Assembly (NCBI GenBank): GCA_033398695.1
Contig: CM065819.1
Location: 3,893,501 to 3,957,500, forward strand
Direction of reading: 5' to 3'
Origin: Orobanche coerulescens
Lineage: Eukaryota > Streptophyta > Magnoliopsida > Lamiales > Orobanchaceae
DNA length: 64,000 nt
The translations under genes and the position numbers were made by a program. Below, piece by piece: positions 5,553 through 58,168 of this stretch; position 1 is the stretch's first letter; every line of letters begins with the position of its first letter. The notes under the pieces are model-generated. The model ran no database searches. It saw only the letters and a list, made by a program, of their open reading frames with translations, and was not told where the DNA came from.

Positions 5553-6360
5553 CAGGCTGATAACTAAAATCAAACATCTAAACATCGCCTTTAAGGCTAA
5601 AATGACTCAGTAGACCGACTTGGTCTTTCAATAATAACATACAACTCAATTCCAAATACATACCCACACAGGGGTCAAAATACAATAAACTCCCGTACAA
5701 CGGGGAAAAGATACTGCAGCGGAAAAGAAAATACAACTAGAGCAATACGACATCAACGGATCCTCGTGTGATTAGTATCGTTCATCTTTCATCATCCTTT
5801 GTGCCGACCCTGTGCTATGCTCCAAAACCTGAATGCAAAAATAGACATCCACCCCCCGAATACTCGGGGGTTAGCAAAACTCCATTGTTTTGCTAGTGCA
5901 AGTACAAGTGCAAAAAATACGAGCCATACAATACAAGTTCCAAGAACAATAATAATCAGGATTCCTCAAAGTTCCAAACGTAACGAAAAGCACTTCCCGA
6001 GGCATGAGTTTGGTAAAACATTCCAAAACCGAAAGACTATAAGTTAAAGGGAAACAATTTATAAAACAGTTTAAAATGCCATCGAGAGTTTTAATAGAAA
6101 ACAATTTAGGATTATCGAATCCTTATCTTTCCAAAAATCAACAGGGTCACAGCCCAAAGGTTTTATTTTCGCAAATAGAAAACCGACAATACCAGGCCAA
6201 AACCCAAGTCACATGTCCTCGACGGACATAAAATCAAATACCAACTCGTGAAGTTTTTACTCGTGATTCCTGGACTCACCCATTGTAATTCCCGTCGTGG
6301 CCCCGTCGAACCAACCCACGGTGAGTAAAATACATTCACTAAATAACATATCACACCAAA

Positions 6361-6634
6361 CATCGCCTTGGGAACAGAGTAATATCATTGATCCCGCCCG
6401 AGGCCTCGAAGGACCCTCCCGAGCTGGCTAGCTAAACAAATCACAACACATGCATCGCCTTGGGAACAGATTAATATCATTGATCCCGCCCGAGGCCTCG
6501 AAGGACCCTCCCGAGCTGGCTAGCTAAACAAATCACAACACATGCATCGCCTTGGGAACAGAGTAATATCATTGATCCCGCCCGAGGCCTCGAAGGACCC
6601 TCCCGAGCTGGCTAGCTAAACAAATCACACACAT
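6361..6634 (-). repeat. Three tandem copies of a 92-bp unit in solo LTR-1
   Basis: Units begin at 6361, 6453 and 6545 (CATCGCCTTGGGAACAGA) and are almost identical. The third is slightly divergent at its end. They lie between the GAGGCAAGTA box and the LTR 3' end and contain short inverted segments such as GGGAAC/GATCCC and CCTCGAAGG. Confidence 0.9.
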
Positions 6635-7590
6635 AGCACAATGCAACAAAGATATCCAAACAATTCATTCAGAGGTATCAAACACTTAGCAAAACACCTC
6701 GTCAAACCACAATGCACCGAAATGAAACAATATACGTCCACACGCAAATACCAAGTGCATCATCAACACCAAACATATCCATAGGATTCACATAGCCACA
6801 TACAACCCACACAATTTACAAAACACACGCGTTTGAAAGTGAGCCTTTAACGAGGCTAGCCGAATCTTTTGAAAACACATTTCAAACAAACAAACAAATA
6901 CACCAAGACGATCACCAATTATCATATCCACAAAACAAGAATAGTATGGGCAAGGTACTTGCCTCGAAACCACAATCGCAACAAGACTACGGATGAAATA
7001 CGGTCGAATGGCCCCGAACTCCCGAACATTATCAAGAACGCGATAGCACCGCAATTACTACGTGAATAACACCACACGAATCGTCAAACACCAACGAGAT
7101 TCAACATCGGAATCCTCGAACACCTATAAACCTCCGGAGGGAACAATAACACATGGTTACGACGAGAATCAAGGCCAAAACAATGGAAATCCCAACAAAC
7201 TATCGAAGGGAAACTCATTGGGACATTTAATCGAACACTCAATGTTCGATAACTCCCAAGAACACTCGAATCACTAATCGAGTTGAACAAACTCGAAATA
7301 TGGATATAAAACCCATAGAACACGATTAATAACATCATACTACACCAACCGATGTATCAAAACCGGACTAGAATCGAAATCAAGAACAAATTCTCCGAAA
7401 AGTCAACTTGAAGGAAAATCAAGAAATATACCTTGATTCGACGAAATACACGGATTGGATGATGATATGATCAACAAGAATCTTCCAAAACATCTTGGAA
7501 TTGATTAGAATCGGCCAAGAAATCGATTCACAGTCGCACCCGTCCGATAGCCTCAAGAAAAGTGTTGAAATGAACAAAATGGGTCGCCAG

Positions 7591-7600: not shown

Positions 7601-7614
7601 CGGCCATCACGGAC

Positions 7615-9375: not shown

Positions 9376-9663
9376 GATGAAGAGTACATTTAGGATTCGT
9401 AATGTTGAACTCTCGGTTGTAGTTTAGAATGTTAGATATTAGTATGTTAGTTACTCGACGTAAGATGAACTCTATATTATTTCTTTTGTTTAAGGTCCGA
9501 GTTTTACTATGTGATTGATCGAATGGGCGACCTTTGAGTGTATTGATACCCGTCGAAGTAATATCATTGTCGTCAAATCGAGGCAAGTACTTTAATTATA
9601 ATTGTGTGTATTAATGTCGGTTATATAATTGTTGTATTATGCATACTTGTTGTGATTAATTGT

Positions 9664-9802
9664 CCACCATGCGTTGGTCTGATGGGATCATCATGAGAAT
9701 CTATAGCTGTGTGCGCTGGATCATTGGATAGGTATTTCCACCATGCGTTGGTACGACGGGATCATCATGGGAAGCTATAGTTGTGTGCACTGGATCGTTG
9801 GA
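9664..9802 (+). repeat. Two tandem copies of a 74-bp unit in Tekay-22 U5
   Basis: Units start at 9664 and 9738 (CCACCATGCGTTGGT) with GGGATCATCATG inside. The 3' LTR has the pair at about 26492 and 26568. A related unit is repeated in solo LTR-2 near 18371-18680 on the other strand. Confidence 0.8.
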
Positions 9803-10269
9803 ATACCATGAGTATGTTGAGATTGTCATGATGTGCTATGTGTTGTAATTATTTCTCGTTGGAGAAAATTGTCATGGTTATGATTGATAATATTGACGTT
9901 ATTATTTAAGGATTGATGAATAAATCCTCGTTATATAATTATCGTACTTGTACTAGCATCATTGTGCTAAGCCCTTCGGGGGTGAATATTTGTGTTATGT
10001 TCAGGATCCAGGAAAGCGGGAAAACAACTACTAGAGGTGCATGACGGCCAGGGTGCGGAGTGATGTTATGGCCGGATTACTTTGTCGTATGTTTGTGTTG
10101 TTTCAATAAAGTACTCGAGTATGTTGTCTTTTGTTATGATGGGTTTGGGTATGTATTAATATTCACCATTGAACGTTTGTATTTTCAGTATTGATTTAGA
10201 ATCATTGTATTTTATTTTTGTACACATCATTTGTTGGTGTTGTTATTGTCATTTTGTTTCTCCAGCCTT

Positions 10270-10337: not shown

Positions 10338-10349
10338 TGGTATCATAGC
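10338..10349 (+). promoter_or_regulatory. Tekay-22 primer binding site
   Basis: TGGTATCATAGC starts 6 nt after the LTR and matches the tRNA-iMet site TGGTATCAGAGC except one base. Confidence 0.8.
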
Positions 10350-10565
10350 TAAGATTATGGATATCTTGGCTATTGGGTTAAATAGGGTCGTATATGCCTT
10401 TTGAGATAACCGGCCGTGCATAACATCACCGTACTGCCTACGTCTTCGTGCGAGCGGTGGTTGTAAGTTCCTAAACTCTATCTCGTCCTTTACATGTTAT
10501 ACCTCTCTAGACTTGAATGTTAGAACAATATTGTTCCCTGTATATTGAGTGTTTATGTTTACAGT

Positions 10566-11675
10566 ATGTTGAGAGGAGGTCGTGGACGTGGTCACAGTCG
10601 TGGACGCGGGCGTATGAATGATGATAGATAAGCTTCACCTTCAAATCAGGCTAGCCACATCTCACGCGAGCCACAAGAATCTACTAACAACGAACCAGAA
10701 CCTGCTGTTCCCGACATCCTTCGTCAGGTGGTCAACCAGATGACTCAGTTTGCTCAGGTTGTGGACCGAATGTAAGTGGCAGTAGGATTGCAACCGGGAG
10801 AAAGACAGCAAGGCATCCCAAACTTGGGAAATCGAGGAGACAGATGGCTCCGAGAGGTGGTGAAAATGCATCCGCCAAAGTTTGACGGTTTCTCGGAGAC
10901 GCCAACGTGGGATCACTGGCTTAGAGAGTTGGAGAAAGTATTCGCAGGCATTAACTGCCCAAACGACCAAAGAGTTCCCATAGCCTGTACTTTCTGACAG
11001 GGGAAGCGTCTGAGTGGTGGGAAGCCATCAGATCTATAGATCATGATGCCGACTAGGGAGAGTTTAAATTGATGATGGAAGCACAGTACTGCCCTCGTCC
11101 AGTGAGGGTAGCTAAAGTTTAAGAATTCTTCTCCGTGCAGCCTGCAGACGTGCCAGTATCTCAGGCGATTAAAATGTTCAATCAGCAGCTGGCGTTTGTT
11201 CGACACCTTGTCAGAATTGATGTAGAAATGATGATCCATTTCGATATGAGAATGAAACCGGAGATACATAGGTACATGTCAGGTTTTGAATGCACCACTC
11301 TCTGTCAGTATCAGGACAAAGCGTTGGCGTATGAAATAAAGGAAGCGGCCATGGAAAAGTTCTCAGAGTCCAAGAAACAGAAAATCTCTGGTAGTTATAC
11401 GGAGCATAAGAGAAGTGGGCCCCGCAATGCCAGTCATCCTTTCATTCATTCAAGAAACCTCCGCATCCATCCAAGAGCGGGAAGAACTTCATAGCGGTAT
11501 CAACACCGACAGATGTAGTCAAGAACTGTTTTAATTGTGGTCGCCTAGGACACCTCTGGTGTGATTGTTTCTGTTCTCCAGTAACATGTTATGATTGCGG
11601 ATAGGAAAGGCATCGTGCGATGTTCTGCAAGGATTCCACGAAGTTAAATGGAGCTCGTACTTCATAGCCGGATCA
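10566..11675 (+). pseudogene. Tekay-22 gag
   Basis: The ATG at 10566 opens MLRGGRGRGHSRGRGR, an Arg/Gly-rich start also seen in gypsy-2 (MLRGRTDRQRGRGRG) and gypsy-3. The capsid core reads PPKFDGFSETPTWDHWLRELEK and, in another frame, FFSVQPADVPVSQAIKMF and MKPEIHRYMSG. A CCHC knuckle CFNCGRLGHLWCDC lies at 11527-11568, followed by a second, broken one (CYDCG, stop, ERHRAMFC). Stops at about 10629, 10772 and 11118 and at least one frameshift inactivate it. It would form the element's virus-like particle in the cytoplasm. Confidence 0.85.
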
Positions 11676-17425: not shown

Positions 17426-17464
17426 TGTAACACCCCCAGATTTAACCGGAAATATTACAGCGCC

Positions 17465-17487
17465 GTGGGCCCCGAGATGGAACCCAC
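17465..17487 (-). other. Conserved LTR-end hairpin, solo LTR-2
   Basis: In sense, GTGGGTTCC pairs with GGGGCCCAC (two T-G pairs, 5-nt loop) and is followed by GGCGCTGTAATATTTCC. Confidence 0.65.
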
Positions 17488-18370
17488 AAGGCTGAAGGAA
17501 ATTTTCGCAAACATTTACAAATGCCCAAGAGGCTAACGACAGTACTATCTTTAAAATATTTGAAGACTATATAAAATATGTTTATCAAAACCGTCGTGAA
17601 ATCTTGTTTTGAAAAGGGCAAGGCTAAACGACCGAAACTCAATAGTTTAGAAAATGATTTCCAAAGTAACTCAAATTACCAAAAACAAAAGGTCATTTCA
17701 AAATACTCACGCAGCGGAATACAGCAACTGATCAGGAAACTCAATACAAACATGTCCTAGCCAGTATCCTCCGGGAAGCTCATCTCTCCACGACCGCTAC
17801 AAGCTCGATATTCCAAGAACCTAAAAAGAAAGCCCACGACGGGGTCAGCCATAATATCCAACAATGATAATCGTCACGTCACATTAATAATTACATACCA
17901 ATGAGAATACAAAATAACAATACGACCAATGTAGTCTTATCGTAGTAACTTCACTTACTCAAACAATTCTCATCAGAATAACCATTATCACATTTCACAT
18001 CCCGTACTCGATTAACCAATAAAATCGAACATAATATCTGTATTGTACCTCAAACAATACTCAATATTCTCAAACTATCATCACCAACTCACGATACGAA
18101 AATATACCAGTTCTGACCAATACAATCCATCGAATAACATCATCAAATCCCAAGACGATAACCGATTGTCCATCAAAGACAAAGACCAAAGGAAATACGG
18201 AACATACCTCGAGATATGATGTGCCACGATAATCATATCAGTCTAATCCGAGATCAGATCAATGCAATACGGACAAGGTCCTAACACAAGACCTACAAAT
18301 ACATACTCATATGACAACGTCAATATGCTCAAAAACAATAACAACTATGTATACTCAATGGAAATCCCAT

Positions 18371-18690
18371 GATCCAAATGCCTCAAGATAGATCCCAAGA
18401 TGATCCTACCAGATCAACACGAGGTGGATAACCAACAATATACATATGCACAACAATAACATATATAAAACCAACGATGCGAATCCACATGATTCCATCA
18501 ACACGACACTGGGTAATCCAATGATCCAGCGCCCTCAGCATAGATCCCAAGATGATCCCGTCGGACCAACACGAGGTGGAAAAACCCGTCCAATGATCCA
18601 GCGCCCTCAGCATAGATCCCAAGATGATCCCGTCGGACCAAAACGAGGTGGACATCCGATCCAGCGCCCTCAGCATAGATCACACGATCC
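18371..18690 (-). repeat. Tandem GATGATCCC...CGAGGTGGA units in solo LTR-2
   Basis: About four copies of a roughly 60-70 bp unit (AGCATAGATCCCAAGATG and AACACGAGGTGGA blocks) lie at about 18371, 18525, 18595 and 18657. They are the counterpart of the 74-bp repeats in the Tekay-22 LTR. Confidence 0.75.
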
Positions 18691-19512
18691 CATAGGATCA
18701 ACACAACACAAGCAACACAATTATGCATACACATATGCAAATCAAAATGTTCATAAACATGAACAACATATGAATCAAACATGAACGACACTATGATGAA
18801 ACAACTAGGACGATTTCATGTTCAGCAACATGAATGACAACCTGCATGATCAACATCATTAACACTAAACCGAATCAAACTAAGATACTTGTCCCGAGTC
18901 CTTCAGGAGCAATCTCGATGTCAAATCATCACCGGCAATCATCCTCAATGCTCGGCGATCCAAACGTACAATGAACTATAAATACGCATATCCTCGTCTT
19001 TACCATAATGTAACCTCGATACCCGAACATACCAATAACTGAGATAAAGCATATACATTATGATTTACCTCCCAAAATCGGAAGAACGATATACAATCCA
19101 AATACCCAGAGTTCACAATAATAATCATCGCTATATGCATTATAAACGAAATGAAACTGAAACCATTCATTAAATATTATGACTGAGCAAGTAATAACTT
19201 GCCTCGATACCGATACCACAAAGCTGCTACCGAACACATTGCCTTTCTCTACGAGCTCCTCAGCCCCGATCAAAAACAACACAACGGACATACTCGAACA
19301 CGACCGCAACATCCGGTTATAATCGCCGATCAATAATCTCAACCTATCGAAGTAATCAAATAACACATATCCGATAACAATCAACAACCGACAAAACTAA
19401 CCAATTGAACTCAACGGTTCAACACAACCTCGAATAAACGCAGTCAGAACAAACCAAATCAAACCATCATGAATTCATAATCAAAACACAAAAATACTGC
19501 ACTGTCTGCCTA

Positions 19513-19605
19513 CTTAGCGCACGTTAAACGCATAACGTAGCGTGCGCTAAGTTGCTCCCGTTAGCGTGCGCTAGCCAGTAAGCTTAGCGTGCGCTAATGC
19601 TGTAC
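19513..19605 (-). repeat. Second TAGCGCACGCTA cluster in solo LTR-2
   Basis: Four copies lie in 93 bp, about 880 nt downstream of the TATA box in sense. This is the same relative position as the second cluster of Tekay-22. Confidence 0.75.
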
Positions 19606-20480: not shown

Positions 20481-20490
20481 TTTTATAAAG
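20481..20490 (-). promoter_or_regulatory. TATA box of solo LTR-2
   Basis: CTTTATAAAA on the minus strand, less than 10 nt after the palindrome array. Confidence 0.55.
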
Positions 20491-20496
20491 TATATT

Positions 20497-21010: not shown

Positions 21011-21315
21011 GTTACACTTAGCCATTTTCAGCTATTCTTGTCTAACATCTCGATATACCAAAAACGAACATAAGACCCACTGAACACAAACACTGAATCC
21101 AATAATATTCTCTTTCGATATACTCTATATCGAAAGTACGATAACCTGATACACCATAGCCTCAAATGCAACTGTCGACCAGATACGACAATTATACCGA
21201 TACTGACATCTCAGTCCTTTATTTATTTTATCCATACTATACAGATTCCACGCTGCACAATATAACTCGGATAAAATAATATCAAACAACAGTAGTAGAA
21301 ATTCCGGATATTACA

Positions 21316-24614: not shown

Positions 24615-27161
24615 TGAATATCCGGATAATTGTTGAGTATCTTCATCTGTATTTGAACCCTGTGTTATTTGAATTTGTGATATCGATAATAGAAGTATGA
24701 TCTTTTTTGTATTCGTATCCACATGCATGATAATATCAACTTGTAATTCTTCATATGCAACTACGCCATAACGTACGCTAGCTAGTAAGCGTAATGTACG
24801 TTATGTACCACGGATAGCATACGCTACGAATGAAGCATAGTGTACGTAAGACAGTCAATAATTTATCAAAGCAGATAGTGCATGGGCCAGTTGGTGGAGG
24901 GCCTGGATAAGATTCCCGCAGCATGAACCTGGACAGTTTTGGGTCAACGGGGATTAACGTAAGCTAAGTGACGTATATAGCGTACGCTAAGTATGGTTGA
25001 TTGCGTACGTAACGTTGTTGATGTAGTGTACGTAAGGGAGAACAGGAGCGAGGCAGTAAGCTATCATTGGACGATAGCGTACGCTAAGTATATCAGATAG
25101 CATACGCTAAGTGGATAACGTACGTTAAGCACTAAGGCTAACGTACGTAAAGCTCAGGACAGTATAAATGGGACAGCACCCCATTTTATTTTACCTCGTT
25201 TCCTTTCAGTTCTACTTCTTTTCCTTCAAATCCAAAGAGTTCCCCTTGGTACATAAACACTTGTATATCATCTCTACTTGATCATTGAGGATTTGAAGCA
25301 CCTTGGATTGGTACTCAAGCTTTCGGTGTTGGATTTTCGTCAAGTGTTCATCATTGTCTTCTACATTAAGGTATGTTGATACTTTCAAAACTCTAATCCT
25401 CGTCCTTAAGAAATGATATGAGCATGCTTATGAGATCATTGGATTAGTGAATGACACATTAAGTTGAGCACCATGTTCTTAAGAGCTAAGATGAACTTAT
25501 TCGAGACCTTTCTTGAGAAAGTGAATTATAACCAAGCATCTTGAGTTGAACCTATGATATAGTTTCTGAGATTAGTTACACGTATTGGATGATGATTCTG
25601 TTTTACTTGCTTACCAATGTGTTGTTAATACGATAACTTAGAACGGGGATATTCAAATAGAGATGAATTCTTAGGATTTTCACCAAGAATGAACCAGGTG
25701 TAGTATAAGTATTCTTCAAGCACAATTCATGATTCGTAGTAACTTCTGAAGATGATAATATTTGTGTTGATATTTAAGATATGATCAAGACTCGTAATTA
25801 ATATCACCTTTGTTAGATGAAGCGTAGGATAAGGATTATTGAAGAGTTTTTGGTTAGCTATTTGTTCTCAATGAAAGTTTGAATGAAGTGATTGGAGCAA
25901 CCATAGATTATCCTAACTACATATCGGAATACGTAATCGAGATTTGAGTATGGCATTGTGATGATATGTGTATCCTTGAATTCGAAGATGTCTAACACCA
26001 TAGGATCATTCAGATTCGCATGAGTAATTTATGTGTGAGTATAACGTATGTTAAGCACTATGCATTACGTACGTTATATCATCAGGTCAGACAGTCGTCT
26101 GATCAGAGAACTGCCAAATTCATGTTTAGCGTACGTTAGGCTTCAGAGCTTACGTACGCTAACGTACAGACTTAACGTACATTACGTTGGGTATGTAACG
26201 TACGTTATTAAGAGTACAGTCAGGATTCGTAATGTTGAACTTTCGGCCGTAGTTTAGAATGTTAGATGTTAGTACGTTAGTTACTCGACGTAAGATGAAC
26301 TCTATATTATTTCTTTTGTTTAAGGTCCGAGTTTTACTACGTGATTGATCGAAGGGCGACCTTCGAGCGTATTGATACCCAGCGAAGTATTATCATTGTC
26401 GTTAAATCGAGGCAAGTACTTTAATTATAATTGTGCGTATTAATGTCGGTTATATTATTGTTGTATTATGCATACTTGTTGTGATTAATTGTCCACCATG
26501 CGTTGATCCGACGGGATCATCATGGGAATTTATAGCTGTGTGCTTTGGATTATTGGACAGGTATTTCCACCATGCATTGGTCCGATGGGATCATCATGGG
26601 AATCTATAGCTATGTGTGGTGGATCGTTGGAATACCATGAGTATGTTGAGATTTTCATGATGTGCTATGTGTTGTTATTATTTCTCGTTGGAGAAACTTG
26701 TCATGGTTATGATTGATAATATTGACATTATTATTTAAGGATTGATGAATAAATCCTCGTTATAAAATTATCGTATTTGTACTAGCATCGTTGTACTAAC
26801 CCCTTCGGGGGTGAACATTTATGTTATGTTCGGGATCCAGGAGAGCGGGAAAACAACCACTAGAGCTGCATGACGACGAGGGTGCAGAGTGATGTTATGG
26901 CCGGATTACTTTGTCGTATGTTTGTGTTGTTTCAATAAAGTACTCGAGTACGTTGTTTTTTGTTATTATGGGTTTGGGTATGTACTAATATTCACCGTTG
27001 GACGTTTGTATTTTCAGTATTGATTCAGAATCGTTGTATTTTATTTTTGTGTCCATCGTTTGTTGGTGTTGTTATTGTCATTTCGTTTCTTCAGCCTTGT
27101 AAATTCTTACGTAAAGGTTTTACGGTGCTGTAATATTCCTGAATATATCGGGGGTGTTACA
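24615..27161 (+). repeat. Tekay-22 3' LTR
   Basis: 2547 bp without nested insertions, ending GGGGGTGTTACA. It shows the undisturbed order: palindrome array (about 24769-25150), TATA (25163-25169), second cluster (26041-26205), GAGGCAAGTA (26409-26418), 76-bp tandem pair (about 26492-26630) and terminal hairpin (about 27102-27126). Confidence 0.9.
25163..25169 (+). promoter_or_regulatory. TATA box of Tekay-22 3' LTR
   Basis: TATAAAT directly after the palindrome array, as in the 5' LTR. Confidence 0.6.
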
Positions 27162-41380: not shown

Positions 41381-41413
41381 GTGCAGAAATGCTGAAAAAC
41401 CCACTTCGGGAGC

Positions 41414-41421
41414 TATATATA
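41414..41421 (+). promoter_or_regulatory. TATA box of gypsy-2 LTR
   Basis: TATATATA in GAGCTATATATAGCTTTGG. Confidence 0.6.
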
Positions 41422-42635
41422 GCTTTGGTCGATTTTTTGGGCATTCTAGCACCTTCCCTTGATCCTCCACCTAGAATCCTTCATCTTAAACTCCAAAATC
41501 AAGCCATAAACATGTTCCAAACACTATAGAATCAAGATATCAAGTCCATTTTTGAATGATTATCCATCTCTTGGTTGAATTAATGTATGTGGTTGAAGTT
41601 CTTCAAGTCATTTTATAGAATTTTGGGGTTTGTTGGGAATTCTTGATTCAAGTTCGTTTTGGCTTTGGATTATATTAGATTATGATGTTGTAATCATGTT
41701 ATTTTTTTTCCCTTAGAGTTTATGGATTAAATTCTGAGTTTTTAATCCGTTCTTAGGTTCGACCTTTGTCGCCTCCGTAGTGTTCGACTAAATGTCTCTA
41801 AGGGTAGAACTTAGGGTGAATCCTTCCATTTCTGTGGGGTTGTGTTTTGATTCGGTATCTCAATGTGTTAGTGTCGAATTGTTGAAGGAAGTTCGGATCG
41901 TACGTCCATCCGTTCGTTGTTTCCCATGTCGTTCGAATTGAGGCAAGTACTTTGATTGTGTTTAATGTACTTCTTGTGAATATGTAAAAATGGGATTTGA
42001 GCCAATTGTTGATTGAGTGTGTGTGAGCCGAGTAAAACCAGTGAGGGTCCCCTGGGGTCCGGTAGGTTGCGTTTCCCTACAGATCACTCGGTTGGGTTAT
42101 ACAACCAGAGAGAGCCTGACGAGGTCTCTTGGGGTGCGTATCTTGCGAGATGCGGGGCCAGTATAGCTCGGGAGGTTGTTTTGTGATGATGATTGTGATG
42201 TGGTATTACGGAATATCTGCGACGACACTGTGATTTATGTTGATTATTGACTTGTTGTACATATTCTAGAATCATTGTACTTGCACTGGCTTCTTGCTGA
42301 CCGGTGGATATACTTTTGTGTATTCAGGTACATGTCCAATTGAAGAGCCAACACAGGGCGAACACGAGCTTGGCAGGCAGCATTGATATCGTGCACCCTT
42401 TTTGAGTTATTGGTTATATTGTCATGGTCATGGTCGTGTTTTACATTTTGTACTCGCGGGGGTACTTTCGTGTGATGTTGTTGTACCAAATATGAACTGT
42501 TGTATCAGTTGTGGTCCTACGGGACGAGATGTTTTTGGTATTGTGTTGTATGTCATTTTGAAGTTGGTTTGTTTAATAAAAGAATAAAGTTGTGGATTGT
42601 AAAACTAAATGAGTTCTTACGTTAGTCCAAGCCTG

Positions 42636-42659
42636 GTAGATTCTCCAAAAAGAATCTAC
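42636..42659 (+). other. Conserved LTR-end hairpin, gypsy-2
   Basis: GTAGATTCT pairs perfectly with AGAATCTAC (6-nt loop) and is followed by GACGCTGTAATATTTC. Confidence 0.7.
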
Positions 42660-42702
42660 GACGCTGTAATATTTCTGTAAATCACGGGGGTGTTACAGAA
42701 TA

Positions 42703-42714
42703 TGGTATCAGAGC
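42703..42714 (+). promoter_or_regulatory. gypsy-2 primer binding site (tRNA-iMet)
   Basis: A perfect TGGTATCAGAGC, 5 nt after the LTR. Confidence 0.9.
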
Positions 42715-42930
42715 TTAGGATTATGGATACCTAGGTTGTCGGTGTTTTGGGTCTGTTAAATTGAGTCAGTTGTTGTCTACGATATCATTGGCATTCTACC
42801 ACCCCGTGTTTCCTGTGCTGGAAGACTCTTTAGATGCTGGTTGTTTCTTTGCTTCGGAAGTACTTCTCCTTTTCATTGTGCAATTTATTATTGTAACCAT
42901 TTCCTTGTTGAATCATTCTTATTCTTTAGT

Positions 42931-43960
42931 ATGCTGAGAGGTAGAACTGACCGCCAACGCGGCCGAGGCCGTGGCAGCGTAGTAGCATCTGAGTCCAAGA
43001 GATCCGTTTCAGAATCGGAATCTCATTCTGCGACTAGGTCAGAACCGATCCCTTCGGGAGGTTCAGATGGAGGCTCGGAGGCCGAAGTGCCTAACGTTCT
43101 TCAATAAGTCGTAACGCAAGTGCACCAACTGGTACAAGTGGTGTAGAATATTAATACTGGCAGGACGGTTGAGGATCGATGGCTTTAAGAAGTTATGAAG
43201 ATGAACCCTCCCAGATTCGGTGGTTCCGGTGATGCGAACAACTGGGATCATTGGTTAGTTGAGCTGGAGAAGATCTTTGACGGTATTGGTTGTCCTGAAG
43301 CCAAGAGAGTCTCGATTTCTCAATATCTGATAGTTGACGACGCTTCGGACTGGTGGCGAGCTGTTAAGCCCAAGGACGGTGATGTCATTGGAGAATAATT
43401 TAATGAACTGATGGAAGCTCAGTATTGTCCAGCGCCGGTACAGTTAGCAAGAGTCAGTGAGTTCTTCAGAGCTCAACCCGAAGATGTTCCTATTTCTGAG
43501 GCAATCAAGACATACAACAAGCAGTTAGTGTATGTCCAAGATCGGGTTAAGGATGAGATAGACAAGATACTTCATTTCGATGCTAGAATGAAACCGAAGG
43601 TCCGAAAGTATATGGCGGGCCTTTGGTGTACTACTTTGAGAGAATATCAGGATAGAGCACTTGCTTATGAGATGGTGTCAGTTCCGGTTCCTGCAGTTTC
43701 GAGCTCGAAGAAACCGAAATTTTCTGGTAGTTTCTGAGGCAGCGGATCGCGTAGGACTTAACCTTCTGTGCAATCTTCTGTTGGTTCCCCTCAGCCTAGT
43801 GGAGGAGCGCCGAAAGTTTGTTTTAATTGTGGAAATCCAGGACATATCAGTTCTCGTTGCACTTCTCGCCCCATTGATTGTTTTAAGTGTGGGAAGTAGG
43901 GTCACCGCGCATTATATTGTGAGTCAGTAGGCGAAATCTTCTCTAAACAGTCTCATACTC
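42931..43960 (+). pseudogene. gypsy-2 gag with two CCHC knuckles
   Basis: The ATG at 42931 opens MLRGRTDRQRGRGRG. One frame carries the whole gag with a few stops (near 43106, 43147, 43186, 43396 and 43735). The capsid core reads PPRFGGSGDANNWDHWLVEL, then EFFRAQPEDVPISEAI and RMKPKVRKYMAGLWCTTLREY. Knuckle one is CFNCGNPGHISSRC at 43819-43860. Knuckle two, CFKCGK-stop-GHRALYC, follows at about 43880-43921 with a TAG in it. It is better preserved than the Tekay-22 gag. Confidence 0.88.
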
Positions 43961-47446: not shown

Positions 47447-47451
47447 GTAGG
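47447..47451. repeat. Left TSD of Cassandra (GTAGG)
   Basis: Identical to 48864-48868. Excision restores the Tat reading frame. Confidence 0.9.
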
Positions 47452-47567
47452 TGGTGGTCCCCTCTAGAAGTGACACTTGTCTCCGGTTCCAACTCTAGCA
47501 GAATGATGAGGAATGTCCTCACTGTACCAACACGGGTCTTTTCTAGCGCGCTTTGTCCTCACTCACG

Positions 47568-47646
47568 CGCACCCTGAGAAACTTCCCAAGGGGTCACCCA
47601 TCCCATAACTACTCCAAGCCAAGCATGCTTAACTTTGGAGTTTCTA
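47568..47646 (-). repeat. 5S rRNA-like segment, first Cassandra LTR
   Basis: It matches plant 5S rRNA in the internal control region. It is not a functional 5S gene: the 5' third of 5S is replaced by other sequence. Confidence 0.85.
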
Positions 47647-47654
47647 TGATATGG

Positions 47655-48191
47655 CTACCAGAAAAGAAGATGCATCTTGTTTGTATGAGTAGTCCAAATC
47701 AATTCATATAACCACTTCCTAGTAGAGATCTCACAGGTCGAATCGCAGGTGGCGTCGCACGTCTTATGCCCATGCAGGCAGGATGCTGGGTTGTAGCCCA
47801 ACAATGCCCCCCAGCACCTGCCATCATCTGCTCCAGTACTTGGAAATCTCCACTCATTCCAATTTTGGTTCCATGCCCGTTTACTTCTACTGCACAGCAT
47901 CTCAGTTCCGGCTATATAAACACCTTTAGTGCCATCCCCGTTTACCTCAGTTACGGCTATACAGACACCTTTGGTTCCATCTCCGTTTACCTCAGTTCCG
48001 GCTATACAGACACCTTTGGTTCCATCCCCGTTTACCTCAGTTCTGGCTATACAGACACCTTTGGTTCCATCCCCGTTTACCTTAGTTCCGGCTATACATA
48101 TACCTTTGGTTCCATCCCCATTTACCTCCACCGTGCCAAGCTTCTTAATCCCACGTTTCTGGCAAATTTTTTTGCTGCAGCATACTCCCAA
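47655..48191 (-). CDS. 178-aa repeat ORF in the Cassandra internal domain
   Basis: An open frame in the element's sense direction starts MGVCCSKKICQKRG at 48191. It has five 15-residue repeats (consensus VNGDGTKGVCIAGTE) and runs into the 3' LTR before stopping at 47655. Cassandra elements are described as non-coding, so this is most likely a by-product of the 45-bp tandem repeat. I know no homolog. The other strand is also open over the repeats, which weakens the case for a real protein. Confidence 0.2.
   Translation of the reverse strand: MGVCCSKKICQKRGIKKLGTVEVNGDGTKGICIAGTKVNGDGTKGVCIARTEVNGDGTKGVCIAGTEVNGDGTKGVCIAVTEVNGDGTKGVYIAGTEMLCSRSKRAWNQNWNEWRFPSTGADDGRCWGALLGYNPASCLHGHKTCDATCDSTCEISTRKWLYELIWTTHTNKMHLLFW
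47901..48125 (-). repeat. Five 45-bp tandem repeats in the Cassandra internal domain
   Basis: Exact 45-bp period, units beginning CTCAGTTCCGGCTATA on the plus strand. Being a multiple of three, it gives 15-residue repeats in sense (VNGDGTKGVCIAGTE type). Confidence 0.9.
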
Positions 48192-48225
48192 GGGAATTCA
48201 AAACCGTGATCGGCTCGATACTAGT

Positions 48226-48511
48226 TGTTGGTCCCCTCTGGAAGTGACACTTGTCTCTGATTCCAGCTCTGGCAGAATCATGAGGATTGTCCTCACTGTA
48301 CCAACACGGGACTTTTCTAGCGCGCTTTGTCCTCACTCATGCGCACCCTGAGAAACTTCCCAGGAGGTCACCCATCCCATAACTACTCCAAGCCAAGCAT
48401 GCTTAACTTTGGAGTTTCTATGGAGCTTCTTAATTCCACGCTTCTGGCAACTTTTTTTTGCTGCAGCATACTCATAAGGGAATTCAAAACCGTGATCGGC
48501 TCGATACTAGT
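48226..48511 (-). repeat. Truncated middle Cassandra LTR plus internal-end segment
   Basis: LTR sequence from 48226 stops after the 5S-like part (GGAGTTTCTATG, about 48423) and jumps to the internal end (GAGCTTCTTAATTCCACG... GGCTCGATACTAGT). That end also occurs at 48132-48225. The 5S-like part is at 48342-48420. Confidence 0.85.
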
Positions 48512-48627
48512 TGTCGGTCCCCTCTGGAAGTGACACTTGTCTCCGATTCCAGCTCTGGTAGAATCATGAGCATTGTCCTCACTGTACCAACACGGGACTT
48601 TTCTAGCGCATTTTGTCCTCACTCATG

Positions 48628-48707
48628 CGCACCCTGAGAAACTTCCCAGGAGGTCACCCATCCCATAACTACTCCAAGCCAATCATGCTTAACTTTGGAG
48701 TTTCTAT
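48628..48707 (-). repeat. 5S rRNA-like segment, third Cassandra LTR
   Basis: Same boxes as in the first LTR. One change (AATCATGC instead of AAGCATGC on plus) falls in box A. Confidence 0.8.
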
Positions 48708-48868
48708 GAGATGGCTACCAGAAAAGAAGATGCATCTTGTTTGTATGAGTAGTCCAAATCAATTCATATAACCACTTCCTAGTAGAGATCTCAGGAGTCG
48801 AATTGCAGGGAGCAGCGCACATCTTATGCCCATGCAGGCAGGATGCTGGGTCGTAGCCCAACAGTAGG

Positions 48869-49953: not shown

Positions 49954-50424
49954 AAGGCTAAACATACGCGGAACTATAAACTTGACCGATAAGGTCTACA
50001 TACAATAGAAAGAAAGACGATACAAATGGTATTCGAAACCATAAACAATGAAACCATATACATCACTGCACAAATCAATACTTCGGCAACACAGGCCGGA
50101 ACATCAAGGAAACTGAAATACAATACTCGAGTATTTAAAAATCCATTCCAGTACAACAACACTGAATGGAGGAAACCAAAAGAGATATCCGGTGACAAGA
50201 CACAGTATCACACTTGCCCATCATCTTCATGCCGACCTGCACTGCCTGTCCGCTCCTGGAACCTGAAATACATGAAACGTATTTCCCCCATAAAGGGGTT
50301 AGCCGTCGAATAGCTAGTGCAAGTATAACAATATGAAACATAATACTTCTCGACAATAAAGTAAATGTAATCCGTCAATTCATCAATTCAAGACTAGTTA
50401 TTCCGGAATGACTAAAATCTTATG

Positions 50425-50605
50425 ACGTATGTGAATGCCGTAGAAACGGTTCGTTCATATCATACGCCGTTACATGTAGGAATGCCACAAACGGTTCGTT
50501 CGTTACATGCCAATAATACATATATGAATGCCGTAAAAACGGTTCGTTCATAATATGCCATCAATATATCTATGAATGCCGTAAAAACGGTTCGTTCATA
50601 TCAGG
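50425..50605 (-). repeat. Tandem hairpin repeats in gypsy-3 U5
   Basis: Four units combine TATGAA or its variant with CCGTAAAAACGG and TTCGTTCATA. Each unit is an inverted repeat. The LTR-B copies are at about 56710-56885. Confidence 0.8.
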
Positions 50606-51220
50606 CCATCAATTCTTCTTACTTTCAAAGTCGAGAACGCACAATCATAAATGTATACTTGCCTTAATAAACGTTACCGAAGATCCCGAAGAACACGGTT
50701 CGACCGGGAAGTTTGAACCACGAGGAAGACAACGAACGGAAGGGTTTCAACTCGAGTTCTTCACAAGAATTCGACCCTAACAACATAAATTCAATAAATC
50801 ATCGATCATACGAGGAAGAATAATCGTAGAACGCCCGAAAACCCCTCTAAGACATTTTACCGGACACCTTCAAGGCGTCGGTCAAGAACTCGACCAAAAC
50901 AACGAATCGATACGATCCAACCATGGGATAACAAGGGAAATGATACAATACATCTAAATAATCATCAATCCTTCACAATCCTAAGTTAAATCGGATTAAA
51001 CGACGAAATCGAACAAAATACCCAAAATCCCCAAAATTAGATTTCTAGGAAATCGACTGATTCAGTAGATCGGAGGATGTTATAGGACGGATGATTGATG
51101 ATATGAACCTCAAAACTCCATGGATATGTTGTTAAACAACATGGCTTCAAGATTAGAACACGCCAAGTGCGGAAGAGGAGAAGAAGAAGGTGAAAAATGG
51201 CGGAAAAAGCGTCTGCGGGG

Positions 51221-51235: not shown

Positions 51236-51535
51236 GATCTGCCGGACACGGCCGTGTCGGCACGGTCGTGTTACCGATTGGCGACAGGACTCGGCCGTGT
51301 CCCGCTTGACACGGTCGCGGCCGAGGGCCTTCCGACAGCGACCCGCCCGACGGCGGCCCAGGCATGACTCGGCCGTGTCCGGGACACGGTCGGGCGTGTC
51401 GGCGATCGTTCGAGCTTATCCGGAAGAGTAAGCACGGGCCGTGTCGGACGACACGGCCGAGTCTGGTCGGCGAAACTCCGGCATTTCGGACGAGTACGCA
51501 CGGGCCGTGTCGGACGACACGGCCGAGTTCGGCCG
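51236..51535 (-). repeat. GACACGGCCGTGTC palindrome array in gypsy-3 U3
   Basis: Eight or more words of the ACACGGCCGTGT type lie in 300 bp, some paired head to head (CACGGGCCGTGTC next to GACACGGCCGAG), directly upstream of the TATA box. They repeat at about 57520-57815 in LTR-B. Confidence 0.85.
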
Positions 51536-51903
51536 GCAGTGATCGCCAATAACGAGCGGGTGAGTTAAAACGACCATAACTCTCTCGTCCGGACTCCGAT
51601 TGACTCACCGTTTGAACCATTGGAAGGCTAACTCGATGCTCTATAATATTGCAAGATTCAGAATTTTTGGAGTTACCAAAAATTAATGGTGATCTAACAA
51701 AGTCGAACTCCCACGTGAAAAAGTCGATAAAGAACACGAATTCAATGAACGATACCGAAACGAACTCGGATGACAAAAAGTATAGAATTAATCATTTCTC
51801 AGAAGACGAAACGGTCCCAAGCAAGTCGTCAAAATAGACTTCCGCCAAAAATAGAAAATTTCGGGATAAAATTACGGGTACTACATTCTACCCTCCTTAA
51901 AAG

Positions 51904-51921
51904 AAGTTTCGTCCCAAACTT
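51904..51921 (-). other. Inverted repeat near the gypsy-3 PPT
   Basis: In sense AAGTTTGGGACGAAACTT: 7 paired bases with one mismatch. It is the counterpart of 24578-24596. Confidence 0.55.
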
Positions 51922-54268
51922 AAAACAGTAGGAGAAGAAATATTTCGCCAGAAAAGCTCAACGAGATGCACAAGAATCAAACTTACGCCCAAACGGCGAA
52001 TCATCAATATAGAACACCACAATACATTACCCGAAGGCAAACCAAACCAATGCCGAAAAGATACGAATTCACAATGCCCAAGGCTCCAACGGAAATACCG
52101 ATATATCACAATGGCTCGAAAGCCGAACAGCCCAAAGTCAGAATCATCACAATACAGATCTCAAAGGAGCAAACTGATCGTCGGACATACCCTCGGCGTA
52201 TGAACAACCAAATGGAAATCGTCGGACATATCCAATACAACATGGACTACGAACGATCAATCAATAAACCTCAAGAGGGACATCACAAGACGCCCGATCC
52301 GAAATGTGTCCATGCACATGTCCACCCCGTATACGGAATCCGTAATATACGTGTGACAATGTACCTAATTAGCCTCAAGAACTACGTCTCGTGTGCACGG
52401 TCCAATGCGGAAATATCCACGCATGACCATCGAGTGCCCGGCTAAAAATCCTACACATAACCAATCGGCACACGTACATGATTCCGGATATGCCACGATA
52501 CAACATGACAACGAAACTCAAGGGATAAAACATCCAATATGGATCATACGACTCACCAAGTGAACGATGACACACGAATAATAAAAGATCGACACGACCA
52601 ACGATATTCAAAACAACCATCCTGGGATCAGAATTTCCCTAAGGACCGATTAACACGAGCAACGATCACAACACAACAGTTCGGGAAAATCCTCAACCTT
52701 CAAAGATCACAAAATTACCGAGTTCACAAGAAAATAGTGTGCTGCCTTGAATCGGCCAACACGACAATAATAATTCAACGGATGGGAACTATCCTCGACA
52801 GTCCTAATTCAATACTTCGATTACCGTAGAATGGCCAATCGATAACAACGATACAACGGATGAGAATATTTTTGACAATGGATGGGAATTATCTTCGATA
52901 ATCCCAATTCAATACCTCGATTACCTTAGAACGGTCAATCGATAAACAATGATACGATAGAATGGATGTCCCGGTGTCTTAAACCGACCACAGAAACGGA
53001 GATGATAAAAGGATATATCAAACGTCTCTCATTGGTTAATATAATATTAATAGAGAAACACCGATGTCAATGACGACGATTACCACAATATCTCAATGGA
53101 ACATCCATCACAATCACAATCGATACGTCGATACCGCGAACCGGCAATCGACAGCGACTTAACCAACAAGTATCGCAATGCCTCGAACCGGCCTTTTACA
53201 AACAATAGTAACATTTGGCATAATTTGCCGACGGGCGTCGTGTCAACCAATCCCCTGACATCAATACAATCATAAAGAGGCCAAGTCCCAAAATGATACA
53301 CACAATCGTACGCCTACACGATAACATTAGTCTCATTGATTAGTACGAGTATAAAACTTGTCTCGATATCAATACAAAGTATCATTACCAATTCGATTGA
53401 TTTCGTCTTACGAATTCCCTCGATCTCGACCAAGTTAATCTACGAACCCTTCAACCTTAACCGCAACAACACAGTCATAATTCACGATCAAATATCATAC
53501 CTTATTGTAAAATGAAGGATTGATAATCAACCGGTTCGATGACGACCAATATCAATACCACCAAACCACGAACTCAATCGCTTTACCATATCTCGACTAA
53601 TCACAATCTGAACAATCCAACTCGGACACTTACAAATCCCGTCCACAATACGAGTCGAAAAATGATGATCATATCAGAACCAATTCGACCAATAATAAGG
53701 GTCTAAATGTTCCAAACTCAATTCTTAAATACGAATTTACAAGGTTCCCTTCTCGTAAATCCATCGTTAAAATTTACTTATAACCGTCATCAATTCGAAT
53801 CATCCGACTGTTCAAAATAATAGTTAATCATATTAAAAATTTTATCAATCAATCAAATCATTCGATTTGAATATTTGCTCCTACGTATGGGCTTCCAAAT
53901 TCAGAGATGAATAATAGTCTCATCAAACTCATAATCACATTCGTATTCCTATACGAACATTATTTCCAACACATAGTTTAGCTCTAGATATGAATATTCC
54001 ATATTCATTTTCAAAACATCAACACTTCAAAAAAAAATTTTCATCACCTCGTATAATTCAAGAGTTCTTCAAGAACATGAAATATCCGAAACCACGTTCA
54101 GAACAACATCTCCGAGGTATATATCTCCATGTTACCATTTTCTTCATCATGTCATTCATACAATCTCAAGAATCGCAACAAAACCCTTATCACCATATGA
54201 AGAAGATCTCAATGATCATATCAACATCCGAAATTTCTTATTACAATTCCAATAAATCTCGTATAACA
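51922..54268 (-). other. gypsy-3 internal region without recognisable coding
   Basis: About 2.35 kb. No gag or pol motif on either strand. A degenerate duplication (ATGGGAA...TATC...TCGATA blocks) lies at about 52775-52850 and 52877-52955. At 53354-53363 a GAGACAAGTT word, one base off the LTR donor-like box, and neighbouring text suggest a worn LTR fragment of the solo LTR-2 type. Confidence 0.5.
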
Positions 54269-54269
54269 T

Positions 54270-54281
54270 TATCACATGATA
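54270..54281 (-). promoter_or_regulatory. Degenerate primer binding site beside LTR-C
   Basis: TGGTATCATGTG in sense, 7 nt from the LTR-C end. The first 8 bases of the tRNA-iMet site are intact. Confidence 0.5.
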
Positions 54282-54325
54282 CCATAATTGTAACACCCCA
54301 GATCCTCCTGGGAATATTACACGCC

Positions 54326-54350
54326 GTAAACCCTTCTCACAAGGATTTAC
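54326..54350 (-). other. Conserved LTR-end hairpin, LTR-C
   Basis: In sense GTAAATCCTT pairs with AAGGGTTTAC (one T-G pair, loop GTGAG), followed by GGCGTGTAATATTCC. Confidence 0.7.
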
Positions 54351-55050
54351 TGTGCTAAGCACAATTTCCACGTCGTTCCAAAAATGCTAAAAAGACCGAT
54401 GACGGTAATATTTTTCAAATACTAAAAAAAATCATTTTCCAAATACCGTCAAAACGATCAAGGTTAAAATGCCAAAAACTCAGTTTAGGGAATCGGTTTT
54501 ACAAAATAAAATTTCAGTTGGCAAAATACCAAAATCCATTTCACAAATACTCACGCAGTGGATAAAAGTACAGTCCAATTTATGCATTTTCATTAAAATA
54601 AGACGAACGTCAAAATACACGATTCCCAACATACTCCCTCCCAAGTAGTAATCCAAAAAGAAAAAAATGAGCCACTATCAAAGGGATACGAGGATTACCT
54701 TGTATGGACGAACCACGAAGAAAGAATAATTGAACTCCATTCCAAGAATCATTAAATCATCATAGTCATCATATGGCCTCAAGAACACCAAGATCTCTAT
54801 GATTCCATAATCATAATCAACATATTCAAAGCATATCATTATCTTCCTTCAACATAAACCTCATAGAATATGGATAACACAAGGAATCACTTCAAGAATC
54901 AACAATAGTTCCATAACCAAGCTCTAATTCCATGATTCCAAGCTCACAATCATGTTAAAAGTGCTTAGAACACTCTTAAAAGTGAAGAGGGACGAGTTTT
55001 GGAGAGAAATATCTCAAAGGATCGTGAGAGAAATGAAAGGCAACACTTCA

Positions 55051-55060
55051 ATATATAAAT
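55051..55060 (-). promoter_or_regulatory. TATA box of LTR-C
   Basis: ATTTATATAT in sense, about 30 nt after the palindrome array. Confidence 0.5.
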
Positions 55061-55091
55061 TGCACTCTCATTACGCATTTAGGTGTCCTTT

Positions 55092-55405
55092 CTTAACGTA
55101 CGTAACAACTTTAACGTGCGTAATCCAAAATCCATAACGTCGTAACCAACTCACTGTCTCAACTGCGGTCCATTACGACGTAACCTATACCATACAACGT
55201 ACGTAATATACCGATTGACTTGCTACAAGATAATGGTTGTGTTACGTCGTAACACGCCCCGTATAACGTATGTAACACATACGTTGACTCACCACAACAT
55301 CTGCGCCGAAAGTTTCCAAAACAGGTCCCACCCGCCGACCAGACTCGGTTCGTCCGATGCCGGGTATTACGACGTAATACCTTAGCCTTAACGCACGTAA
55401 CCATG
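55092..55405 (-). repeat. ACGTACGT / ACGACGTAA palindrome array in LTR-C U3
   Basis: About nine words (AACGTACGTAAC, TTACGACGTAAC, TTACGTCGTAAC, AACGTATGTAAC, TTACGACGTAAT) lie in 310 bp. Confidence 0.75.
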
Positions 55406-55656
55406 CCAATCTTACGCATTTAATCTCACCTTATTAACGCATTTAATAATTCCATACTTAGTCAATTTCAACAATTCTGTCCAAAGTCATGACATACTAA
55501 ATACGAGCATACGGCAAAATCAATACATATACTCAATTCAATAACATTTTCAAACGTTCACAACGCCCTCGAGCATAATTAACCATCCACGATATCCAAT
55601 ATATAAACGAAAAAATATATCCGAAAATCGGGTATTACACTCTACCCCTTAAAAAT

Positions 55657-55847: not shown

Positions 55848-55925
55848 TTAGCAATTTAACAAAATCTCAAGGAAGAGTTCACGTCCGTGACCACGGCCAC
55901 GATTCTTCCTACTTTCAGCCAACAT
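55848..55925 (-). pseudogene. gypsy-3 gag N-terminal stub
   Basis: From an ATG at 55925: MLAESRKNRGRGHGREL, then a stop after about 25 codons. The Arg/Gly-rich start and its distance from the PBS (about 230 nt, against 217 nt in Tekay-22) identify it as the gag start. The rest of gag is deleted. Confidence 0.6.
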
Positions 55926-55926
55926 T

Positions 55927-56942
55927 CTGAAGGGCACATACGTGCGTAAGTATAATCCAAATCGCACATTCCCGAAGTGACCAATTCCCAAGAATACCAA
56001 GCTATAAACGAAACGATTAAGAAAAATACAAGAAGAGTGAGAGGACTTATAAGTACCGGTCGCACTGTGATGATGGCAGAGTAGTGATATCAGGCAAATG
56101 CCGACTAATCGATCTCCAAAAGACCGACAGCCTAGGTATCCATAAACCTAAGCTCTGATACCATATTCTGTAACACCCCCAAGTTATTCAGGGTATATTA
56201 CAGCGCCGTGAGCCCCGCCGTGGGACCCACAAGGCTAAACATACGCGGAACTATAAACTTGACCGATAAGGTCTACATACAATAGAAAGAAAGACGATAC
56301 AAATGGTATTCGAAACCATAAACAATGAAACCATATACATCACTGCACAAATCAATACTTCGGCAACACAGGCCGGAACATCAAGGAAATTGAAATACAA
56401 TACTCGAGTATTTAAAAATCCATTCCAGTACAACAACACCGAATGGAGGAAACCAAAAGAGATAACCGAGACAAGACACAGTATCACACTTGCCCATCAT
56501 CTTCATGCCGACCGGCACTGCCGTCCGCTCTCTCCCGGAACTCCGAAATACATGAAACGTATTTCACCCATAAAGGGGTTAGCCGTCGAATAGATATTGC
56601 AAGTATAACAATATGAAACATAATACTTCTCGACAATAAAGTAAATGTTATCCGTCAATTCATCAATTCAAGACTAGTTATTCCGTAATGACTAAAATCT
56701 TATGACGTATGTGAATGCCGTAGAAACGGTTCGTTCATATCATACGCCGTTACATGTAGGAATGCCGCCAAACGGTTCGTTCGTTACATGCCAATAATAC
56801 ATATATGAATGCCGTAAAACGGTTCGTTCATAATATGCCATCAATATATCTATGAATGCCGTAAAAACGGTTCGTTCATATCAGGCCATCAATTCTTCTT
56901 ACTTTCAAAGTCGAGAACGCACAATCATAAATGTATACTTGC
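55927..56942 (-). other. Predicted GC-AG leader intron of gypsy-3
   Basis: In sense, the donor ATTAAG/GCAAGTATAC in LTR-B and the acceptor TGCCCTTCAG/A one nucleotide before the gag ATG. Length 1016 nt, including the PBS. Confidence 0.45.
56152..56163 (-). promoter_or_regulatory. gypsy-3 primer binding site (tRNA-iMet)
   Basis: A perfect TGGTATCAGAGC in sense, 5 nt from LTR-B. Confidence 0.9.
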
Positions 56943-58168
56943 CTTAATAAACGTTATCAAGATCCCAAGAACACGGTTCGACCGGGAAGTTTGAACCACG
57001 AGGAAGACAACGAACGGAAGGGTTTCAACTCGAGTTCTTCACAAGAATTCGACCCTAACAACATAAATTCAATAAATCATCGATCATACGAGGAAGAATA
57101 ATCGTAGAACGCCCAAAACCCTCTAAGACATTTTACCGGACACCTTCAAGGCGTCGGTCAAGAACTCGACCAAAACAACGAATCGATACGATCCAACCAT
57201 GGGATAACAAGGGAAATGATACAATACATCTAAATAATCATCAATCCTTCACAATCCTAAGTTAAATCGGATTAAACGATTTAAATCGAACAAAATACCC
57301 AAAATCCCCAAAATTAGATTTCTAGGAAATCAATTGGTCGGTAGATCGGAGGATGTTATAGGACGGATGATTGATGATATGAACCTCAAAACTCCATGGA
57401 TATGTTGTTAAACAACATGGCTTCAAGATTAGAACACGCCAAGTCGGAAGAGGAGAAGAAGAAGGTGAAAAATGGCCAAGAAACGTCTGCAGGGGCCTTT
57501 TATAGGGCCGATCGTCGCCGGACACGGCCCGTGCGGTCGGCACGGTCGTGTTGCACAGCTTGGCCGACAGGACTCGACCGTGTCCCGCTTGACATGGTCG
57601 CGGCGCCGAGGGCCTTCCGACAGCCTACCCGCCCGACAATGATCGGGCATGACTCGACCGTGTCCCGGGACACGGCCGGGCGTGGTGTCAGCTGCTCCAG
57701 CTTATCCTAAGAGTACGGCACGGCCGTGTCGGACGACACGGCCGAGTCTGGTCGGCGAAACTCCGGCATTTCCGGACGAGACGGCACGGGCCGTCGGACG
57801 ACACGGCCGAGTTCGCCGGCGTGATCGCCAATAACGAGCGGGTGAGTTAAAACGACCATAACTCTCTCGTCCGACTCGATTGACTCACCGCTTGAACCAT
57901 TGGAAGGCTAACTCGATGCTCTATAATATTGCAAGATTCAGAATTTTGGAGTTACCAAAAATTAATGGTGATCTAACAAAGTCGAACTCCCACGTGAAAA
58001 AATCGATAAAGAACACTAATTCATGTAACGATACCGAAACGAACTCGGATGACAAAAAGTATAGAATTAATCATTTCTCAGGAAGACGAAACGGTCCCAA
58101 GCAAGTCGTCAAAATAGACTTCCGCCAAAAATAGAAAATTTCCGGGGATAAAAATTACGGGTACTACA
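56169..58168 (-). repeat. gypsy-3 5' LTR (LTR-B)
   Basis: 2000 bp, homologous to LTR-A over its full length. Donor-like box AAGGCAAGTA at 56936-56945. Several small deletions fall in the palindrome array. Confidence 0.9.

Follow-up and report, generated by a model that had tools for sequence, protein, structure and literature searches.

The LTR retrotransposons in a 64,000-nucleotide stretch of Orobanche coerulescens DNA (hereafter the window) share a short box that reads like a GC-type splice donor, and the question is whether this box opens an intron and, if so, at which acceptor the intron ends. An earlier note had proposed a GC-AG leader intron that begins in the LTR, runs to the gag ATG and excises the primer binding site (PBS). 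On our reading of the sequence the predicted GC donor in the LTR stands, and the run to gag with excision of the PBS gives way to an acceptor inside the LTR, which scores best. The reading we prefer, with moderate confidence, is that the main event is a predicted spliceosomal intron lying wholly inside the LTR of these chromovirus-like (Tekay/Del-like) elements. The probabilities that we attach to this reading, to the use of both acceptors and to the gag-proximal acceptor alone overlap. Coordinates are collected in Table 1.

Table 1. Splice-like signals and landmarks of the LTRs and elements in the window
Feature	Positions	Strand	Basis
Donor box GAG|GCAAGTA, LTR C	41940..41949	+	box scan, donor score
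Predicted intra-LTR intron C, 385 nt	41943..42327	+	acceptor score
Branch-like CTGAC, hairpin 2 (8 pairs), acceptor CAG|G, LTR C	42296..42327	+	
TATA-like box, LTR C	41413..41425	+	
LTR C 3' end GGGGTGTTACA	42687..42697	+	
PBS TGGTATCAGAGC, element C, exact; outside predicted intron	42703..42714	+	
Gag-proximal acceptor CTTTAG|T and gag ATG, element C; rank 6/53	42924..42933	+	
Donor box, LTR A5	9580..9589	+	box scan, donor score
Predicted intra-LTR intron A5, 422 nt	9583..10004	+	acceptor score
Branch-like CTAAG, two hairpins, acceptor CAG|G, LTR A5	9966..10004	+	
PBS, one mismatch, element A	10338..10349	+	
Gag-proximal acceptor TTTACAG|T and gag ATG, element A; rank 6/39	10558..10568	+	
Donor box, LTR A3	26409..26418	+	box scan
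A3 acceptor region, hairpins retained, GG for AG	26795..26833	+	
Donor box, solo LTR B	6956..6965	-	box scan, donor score
Predicted intra-LTR intron B, 1134 nt	5829..6962	-	acceptor score
Branch-like CTAAC, two hairpins, acceptor CAG|G, LTR B	5829..5875	-	
Donor box, LTR D	19196..19205	-	box scan, donor score
Predicted intra-LTR intron D, 1382 nt	17821..19202	-	acceptor score
Branch-like CTGAC, acceptor TAG|G, LTR D; without hairpin 2	17821..17849	-	
Donor box, LTR E3 (3' LTR)	50656..50665	-	box scan, donor score
Predicted intra-LTR intron E3, 400 nt	50263..50662	-	acceptor score
Branch-like CTAAC, two hairpins (hairpin 2 of 9 pairs), acceptor CAG|G, LTR E3	50263..50303	-	
Donor box, LTR E5 (5' LTR)	56936..56945	-	box scan
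E5 acceptor region, hairpins retained, GG for AG	56543..56583	-	
PBS, element E, exact	56152..56163	-	
Gag-proximal acceptor CTTCAG|A and gag ATG, element E; rank 4/34	55923..55932	-	

The elements and the donor box

The PBS, TGGTATCAGAGC, which we take to be of the initiator tRNA-Met complement type, is exact in elements C and E and has one mismatch in A. Pfam searches gave clear matches to RVP_2, RVT_1 and a Tf2-1-like SH3 domain, and a sub-threshold match to Chromo (E 0.00089). Among the best 120 of 8000 relatives of the reverse transcriptase, the named ones are nearly all plants, headed by Smallanthus and Tanacetum (both Asteraceae); two bacterial names among the same 120 were taken for contamination. 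The sequence GGGGTGTTACA terminates eight LTRs in the window and conforms to the type A U5 att (GGG at -10 to -8), which belongs to Del elements (excerpt of PMC4029996, a paper that uses neither the stem of splicing nor that of intron). The LTR ends, together with the naming in the earlier note, make Tekay the likely label for these elements.

The box, RAGGCAAGTW, occurs seven times in the window against a mean of 0.36 in shuffled sequence, and none of 100 shuffles reached seven. An exact copy is present at each of the seven positions that the earlier note had listed. Self-comparison of the window identified the boxes at 9580 and 26409 as lying in the two LTRs of element A (copies A5 and A3) and those at 50656 and 56936 as lying in the two LTRs of element E (E3 and E5), and the assignment of the boxes to five LTR families, here treated as independent and called A to E, was borne out. 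The sequence around the box had been described as otherwise diverged, and the flanks do diverge between families, which rules out recent common descent as the whole cause of the shared box. The box is present in seven of the eight LTRs that end in GGGGTGTTACA; the eighth (54289-55640, minus strand) has neither the box nor the acceptor described below.

A k-mer intersection over one LTR per family (five LTRs, with the starts of C and D approximate) returned AGGCAAGT and six 8-mers of the LTR 3' end, one of them being TGTAATAT, about 35 nt from the LTR end, and the rest falling within GGGGGTGTTACA. AGGCAAGT is thus the sole 8-mer common to all five LTRs outside the LTR 3' end. The null for this comparison, a first-order Markov model sampled 300 times, gave a mean of 0.55 shared 8-mers and a maximum of 4. 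Forms of AGGCAAGT with one mismatch were at chance level in the window (38 vs 35.6), so only the exact box is special.

Across the 3.65-Gb assembly the box was counted 287,261 times (143,558 + 143,703) and the reversed pattern 33,235 times (16,647 + 16,588), an 8.6-fold ratio and an excess of 254,026, in counts that cover the whole genome, not LTRs alone, and that include related, non-independent copies. For 63 of the first 100 listed box places a partner with identical letters was found on the same strand 4-8 kb away (random positions: mean 5.2, largest 21 per 100), as expected of the two LTRs of one element. Chance as the cause of the box is ruled out by the count in the window, the shared 8-mer and the genome-wide excess.

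The box matches AG|GCAAGT, the donor of GC-AG spliceosomal introns. Candidate sites were scored with assumed frequency tables for plant splice sites and branch points. With GT and GC scored alike, the box ranked first among all scanned GT/GC dinucleotides in 5/5 families (123 candidates in A5, 216 in B, 100 in C, 294 in D and 84 in E3). The scan stopped at the intra-LTR acceptor and began near the estimated transcription start (B, C, D and E3) or 600 nt before the box (A5); the best GT donor farther upstream in A5 scored 6.0 vs 7.1 for the box. When the rarity of GC donors was charged (~6 bits; 1.2% vs 98.7%), at least one GT candidate outranked the box in each of the five families, and the donor rank is therefore support, not proof. 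The predicted role of the box is most likely that of a GC-type 5' splice site. GC-AG introns account on average for 1.2% of plant splice sites, and their usage is below that of GT-AG introns (excerpt of PMC6310983).

Acceptors for the box

Between a point ~65 nt past the box and either the LTR end or the gag start, every AG received a combined branch-point and acceptor score; the intra-LTR acceptor had first been spotted by eye and was ranked afterwards. In 5/5 families the intact copy has its best-scoring AG (1/39 in A5, 1/67 in B, 1/53 in C, 1/67 in D and 1/29 in E3) within the LTR, at a site that the earlier note had not listed. This AG lies 330 nt from the LTR end in A5, 338 in B, 371 in C, 396 in D and 373 in E3, a span of 66 nt (P 0.000265 for random AGs). 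A pyrimidine stretch and a branch-point-like motif (GCTAAG in A5, GCTAAC in B and E3, GCTGAC in C and D) accompany this AG in the intact copies of the five families, with the branch A 24-42 nt upstream, a normal spacing; the A5 motif, CTAAG, departs from the CTRAC form. Against 500 dinucleotide shuffles, the best acceptor score had P values of 0.136 (A5), 0.014 (B), 0.002 (C), 0.132 (D) and 0.002 (E3), so that taken singly families A and D do not beat the shuffles (P ~0.13). The second copies A3 and E5, 2/7 of the box-bearing copies, have GG where the AG is expected.

The predicted introns lie wholly within the LTR, and the PBS remains in the exon. TRF arrays with units of 47 to 92 nt are found inside the predicted introns of A, B, D and E, and none is found there in C. 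Small arrays of 22 to 23-nt units lie elsewhere in LTRs A and B, at 5187-5244 and 7725-7765, and a repeat at 51371-51537 likewise falls in an LTR but not in a predicted intron. Joined exon ends of the five families were searched against the window, and the only matches within 6/24 letters were the intron-exon ends of families A, B and C, which means that the window holds no spliced LTR copy. The box-less LTR at 54289-55640 was considered as an intron-less copy and rejected, as it has no exact junction; it was read instead as a deletion form.

As the earlier note had observed, a single nucleotide separates an AG from the gag ATG in elements A, C and E, and splicing to it would remove introns of 982, 987 and 1016 nt. 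Its proposal that these AGs are the matching acceptors fared less well, as they rank only 6/39 (A5), 6/53 (C) and 4/34 (E5) and the intra-LTR AG is first in the intact copies. Judged by these ranks the gag-proximal AG is probably not the main partner of the box; it could serve as an alternative acceptor. Upstream ATGs before gag number 71 (A5), 30 (C) and 37 (E5) in the unspliced leader, 55, 22 and 23 after the intra-LTR splice (the E5 value at the mutated site), and 42, 11 and 9 after the gag-proximal splice. None of the models yields a clean leader, the intra-LTR splice included.

Use of both acceptors from one GC donor is a possibility that we rate well below an even chance: the intra-LTR AG would give an RNA that bears the PBS, and the gag-proximal AG a messenger without it. 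Both classes of AG sit at fixed places, which agrees with such dual use. In A, B and D there are GT donors of the form AAG|GTANNN 136-190 nt downstream of the estimated start, another plant LTR described below has a strong GT donor, and such upstream donors may join in; they are weak or absent in C and E, which counts against this model. AAG|GTANNN donors near the promoter were also seen in the LTR at 54289-55640 and in that other plant LTR, as possible first-exon donors.

We consider it unlikely that the GC donor is joined to the gag-proximal AG alone, with a messenger free of U5 and PBS as the product. The exact 1-nt spacing in A, C and E and the lowest numbers of upstream ATGs among the three models speak for that arrangement. 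Against it, A at -3 is a common start context before an ATG, the ranks given above are low, no hairpin of the kind described below ends at these AGs, and the comparison covers three elements. Foamy viruses offer a parallel for its donor, with an LTR splice donor upstream of the poly(A) signal (excerpt of PMC3694450).

Transcript layout and hairpins at the acceptor

A TATA-like box was found upstream of the donor in 5/5 families, 527 to 1283 nt away. AATAAA follows the acceptor in A and C, and A and B have one within the predicted intron; neither E LTR has an AATAAA-like signal. The position of the TATA-like box before the donor and the placement of AATAAA suggest that the intron probably lies in R. 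Our preferred reading, the intra-LTR intron, would accordingly place it in the transcribed part of the LTR after the TATA box. It would start at the GC donor AG|GCAAGT, use a branch point resembling CTRAC and end at a YAG|G acceptor located 330-396 nt from the LTR end, an acceptor that in 4/5 families adjoins a small hairpin. The AATAAA within the predicted introns of A and B counts against this reading.

The same layout allows the box to act without splicing, by binding U1 snRNP and blocking early polyadenylation in the 5' LTR, with the hairpins as part of the switch. We regard this as very doubtful. In A, B and C a U1-like box does precede an AATAAA, and the mechanism is known in foamy viruses, whose LTR donor suppresses 5' polyadenylation (excerpt of PMC3694450). 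The E LTRs have no AATAAA-like signal, and this reading would leave unexplained why five families have a branch-like motif and YAG|G at a constant position.

The piece between the branch motif and the AG is predicted to fold into two adjacent hairpins in A, B and E and into the second only in C; the corresponding piece of D folds poorly. Relative to single-base shuffles, 0 to 3.7% were as low in fold energy for B, E3, A3, E5 and C, and the piece was no better than its shuffles in A5 (18%) and D (26%). In A, B, C and E (6, 6, 8 and 9 pairs, respectively) the pyrimidine-rich stretch supplies the 3' strand of hairpin 2, and the last base of that strand directly precedes the AG. The chance that such a hairpin ends at a random LTR base is 0.048 to 0.063 in these four families (product 7.8e-6, computed post hoc). 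Hairpin 2 is absent at the D acceptor and none ends at the three gag-proximal AGs. Pairs 4, 5 and 6 of hairpin 2 show changes on both sides between families. When strands were permuted among A, B, C and E, 2/24 permutations reached the full 24/24 pairs and moving the strand of E reduced the count to 17 or 18, so that the covariation rests mainly on E versus the rest.

Hairpins 1 and 2 could have another RNA function, and the conserved parts could belong to a DNA or RNA element unrelated to splicing (a promoter site, or a packaging or dimer signal), a very unlikely reading in which donor, branch and acceptor patterns would all mimic splice sites by coincidence in five families.

With the intra-LTR intron as the preferred reading, splicing would yield a shorter leader that still carries the U5 end and the PBS, and the weak donor together with the hairpin-covered acceptor would leave part of the RNA unspliced. 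Shortening of the leader, intron-enhanced expression and separation of messenger from template are possible purposes. The predicted intron is kept in all seven box-bearing LTR copies of the window, so reverse transcription should use the unspliced RNA as its template. It is an argument against an intron in this place that it should vanish whenever spliced RNA is reverse transcribed.

A further step, which we put forward tentatively and think rather improbable, is that an intron in R, present at both ends of every genomic RNA, marks the fate of that RNA: transcripts that retain it would be packaged and the new LTRs would regain the intron, and spliced transcripts would be translated. The gate would be the GC donor and the hairpin-covered acceptor, and in the 3' LTR a terminal exon would run from the acceptor to the poly(A) site. 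Were this so, a lineage of very high copy number would be using intron retention as a mark of its genome.

Related LTRs, known systems and other structures

A pattern scan for the LTR end plus PBS in contigs of bacterial and archaeal genomes returned six contigs (L001-L006), apparently plant DNA contaminating bacterial assemblies, which represent one family in two variants. In L006, 3.3 kb precede the junction of LTR and PBS, and no ORF of at least 80 aa is present. Its acceptor, CCCCCCAG|GTACATC (CAG|G), ends at 2971, 332 nt before the LTR end (3303), and ranks third overall; with scoring as for the window LTRs, the predicted last intron is 383 nt long and has the GT donor CAG|GTATGA. The exact GC box is absent from L006, its branch-to-AG piece gave no fold, and the sister contigs L002-L005 have no such acceptor in the 450 nt examined. 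This single variant of a single family suggests that the arrangement inside the LTR may predate the GC donor. Between the first-ranked acceptor of L006 and its second-ranked donor, CAG|GTATGA, are 27 nt (2562-2588) that could be a tiny exon in the LTR. A small upstream exon in the window families was rejected: D has an AG 21 nt before the box, with no clear counterpart in the others. Viral contigs gave 0 matches in two pattern scans, and in a protein scan 35 of their stretches matched, none encoding a relative.

Partial splicing of plant retrotransposon RNA is already known. In barley the Ty1/copia element BARE1 splices part of its RNA and keeps the RNAs for replication and translation separate; it resembles the predicted intron as a plant LTR retrotransposon with partial splicing, but its 104-nt GT-AG intron lies at the start of the protease domain, outside the LTR, and its RNA pools also differ in promoter, cap and poly(A) (excerpt of PMC3735527). 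The short GAG RNA of EVD in Arabidopsis likewise arises by partial splicing, whereas the intron there takes out the protease domain and serves Gag output (excerpt of PMC12786077). Spliced RNA is also produced by the plant Ty3/gypsy elements Ogre and CRR, with the difference that the Ogre intron lies between two ORFs and in CRR rt is spliced out, neither of them in the LTR (excerpts of PMC6317226 and PMC3735527). Foamy viruses come close in having an LTR 5' splice site upstream of the poly(A) signal that is gated by RNA structure, but the abstract describes no LTR-internal acceptor, and the structure predicted here sits at the acceptor (PMC3694450). Plant GC-AG introns share the donor class but are those annotated in host genes (excerpt of PMC6310983). 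Maize CRM1 yields a back-spliced RNA from its protease-coding region (excerpt of PMC7010299), and Tekay elements are missing from the expressed set of a sunflower study (excerpt of PMC7730604).

An intron inside the LTR itself would be unusual. No report of one in a plant LTR was recognised in the open-licence literature, as judged from titles, the first lines of abstracts or the papers themselves; the rice Retrosat2 paper has the word stem of splicing only in its reference list (PMC3485330), and splicing terms are absent from PMC3059260 and PMC11728184. Such an intron is odd because both LTRs would lose it if the spliced form were reverse transcribed. That it persists in diverged families of what seems to be a very abundant lineage would mean either that spliced transcripts are shielded from reverse transcription or that the LTR has need of the intron. 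Where an LTR of this kind stands alone, it would place a promoter, a 5' exon, an intron and an acceptor beside genes.

LTR B is a solo LTR (5491-8424, minus strand) flanked by a 5-bp duplication, CTTAA, and inserted in the first LTR of element A. LTR D (17426-21315, minus strand, ~3.9 kb) is an apparent solo LTR with AGTTT on both flanks. Part of the stretch that follows the LTR at 54289-55640 (to 51886, minus strand) resembles the middle that this LTR lacks relative to LTR D, and near 53356 the stretch contains GAGACAAGT, the box with GC changed to AC, as if 51886-55640 (minus strand) were a permuted LTR. Large direct repeats of ~286 and 45 nt occupy 47448-48863.
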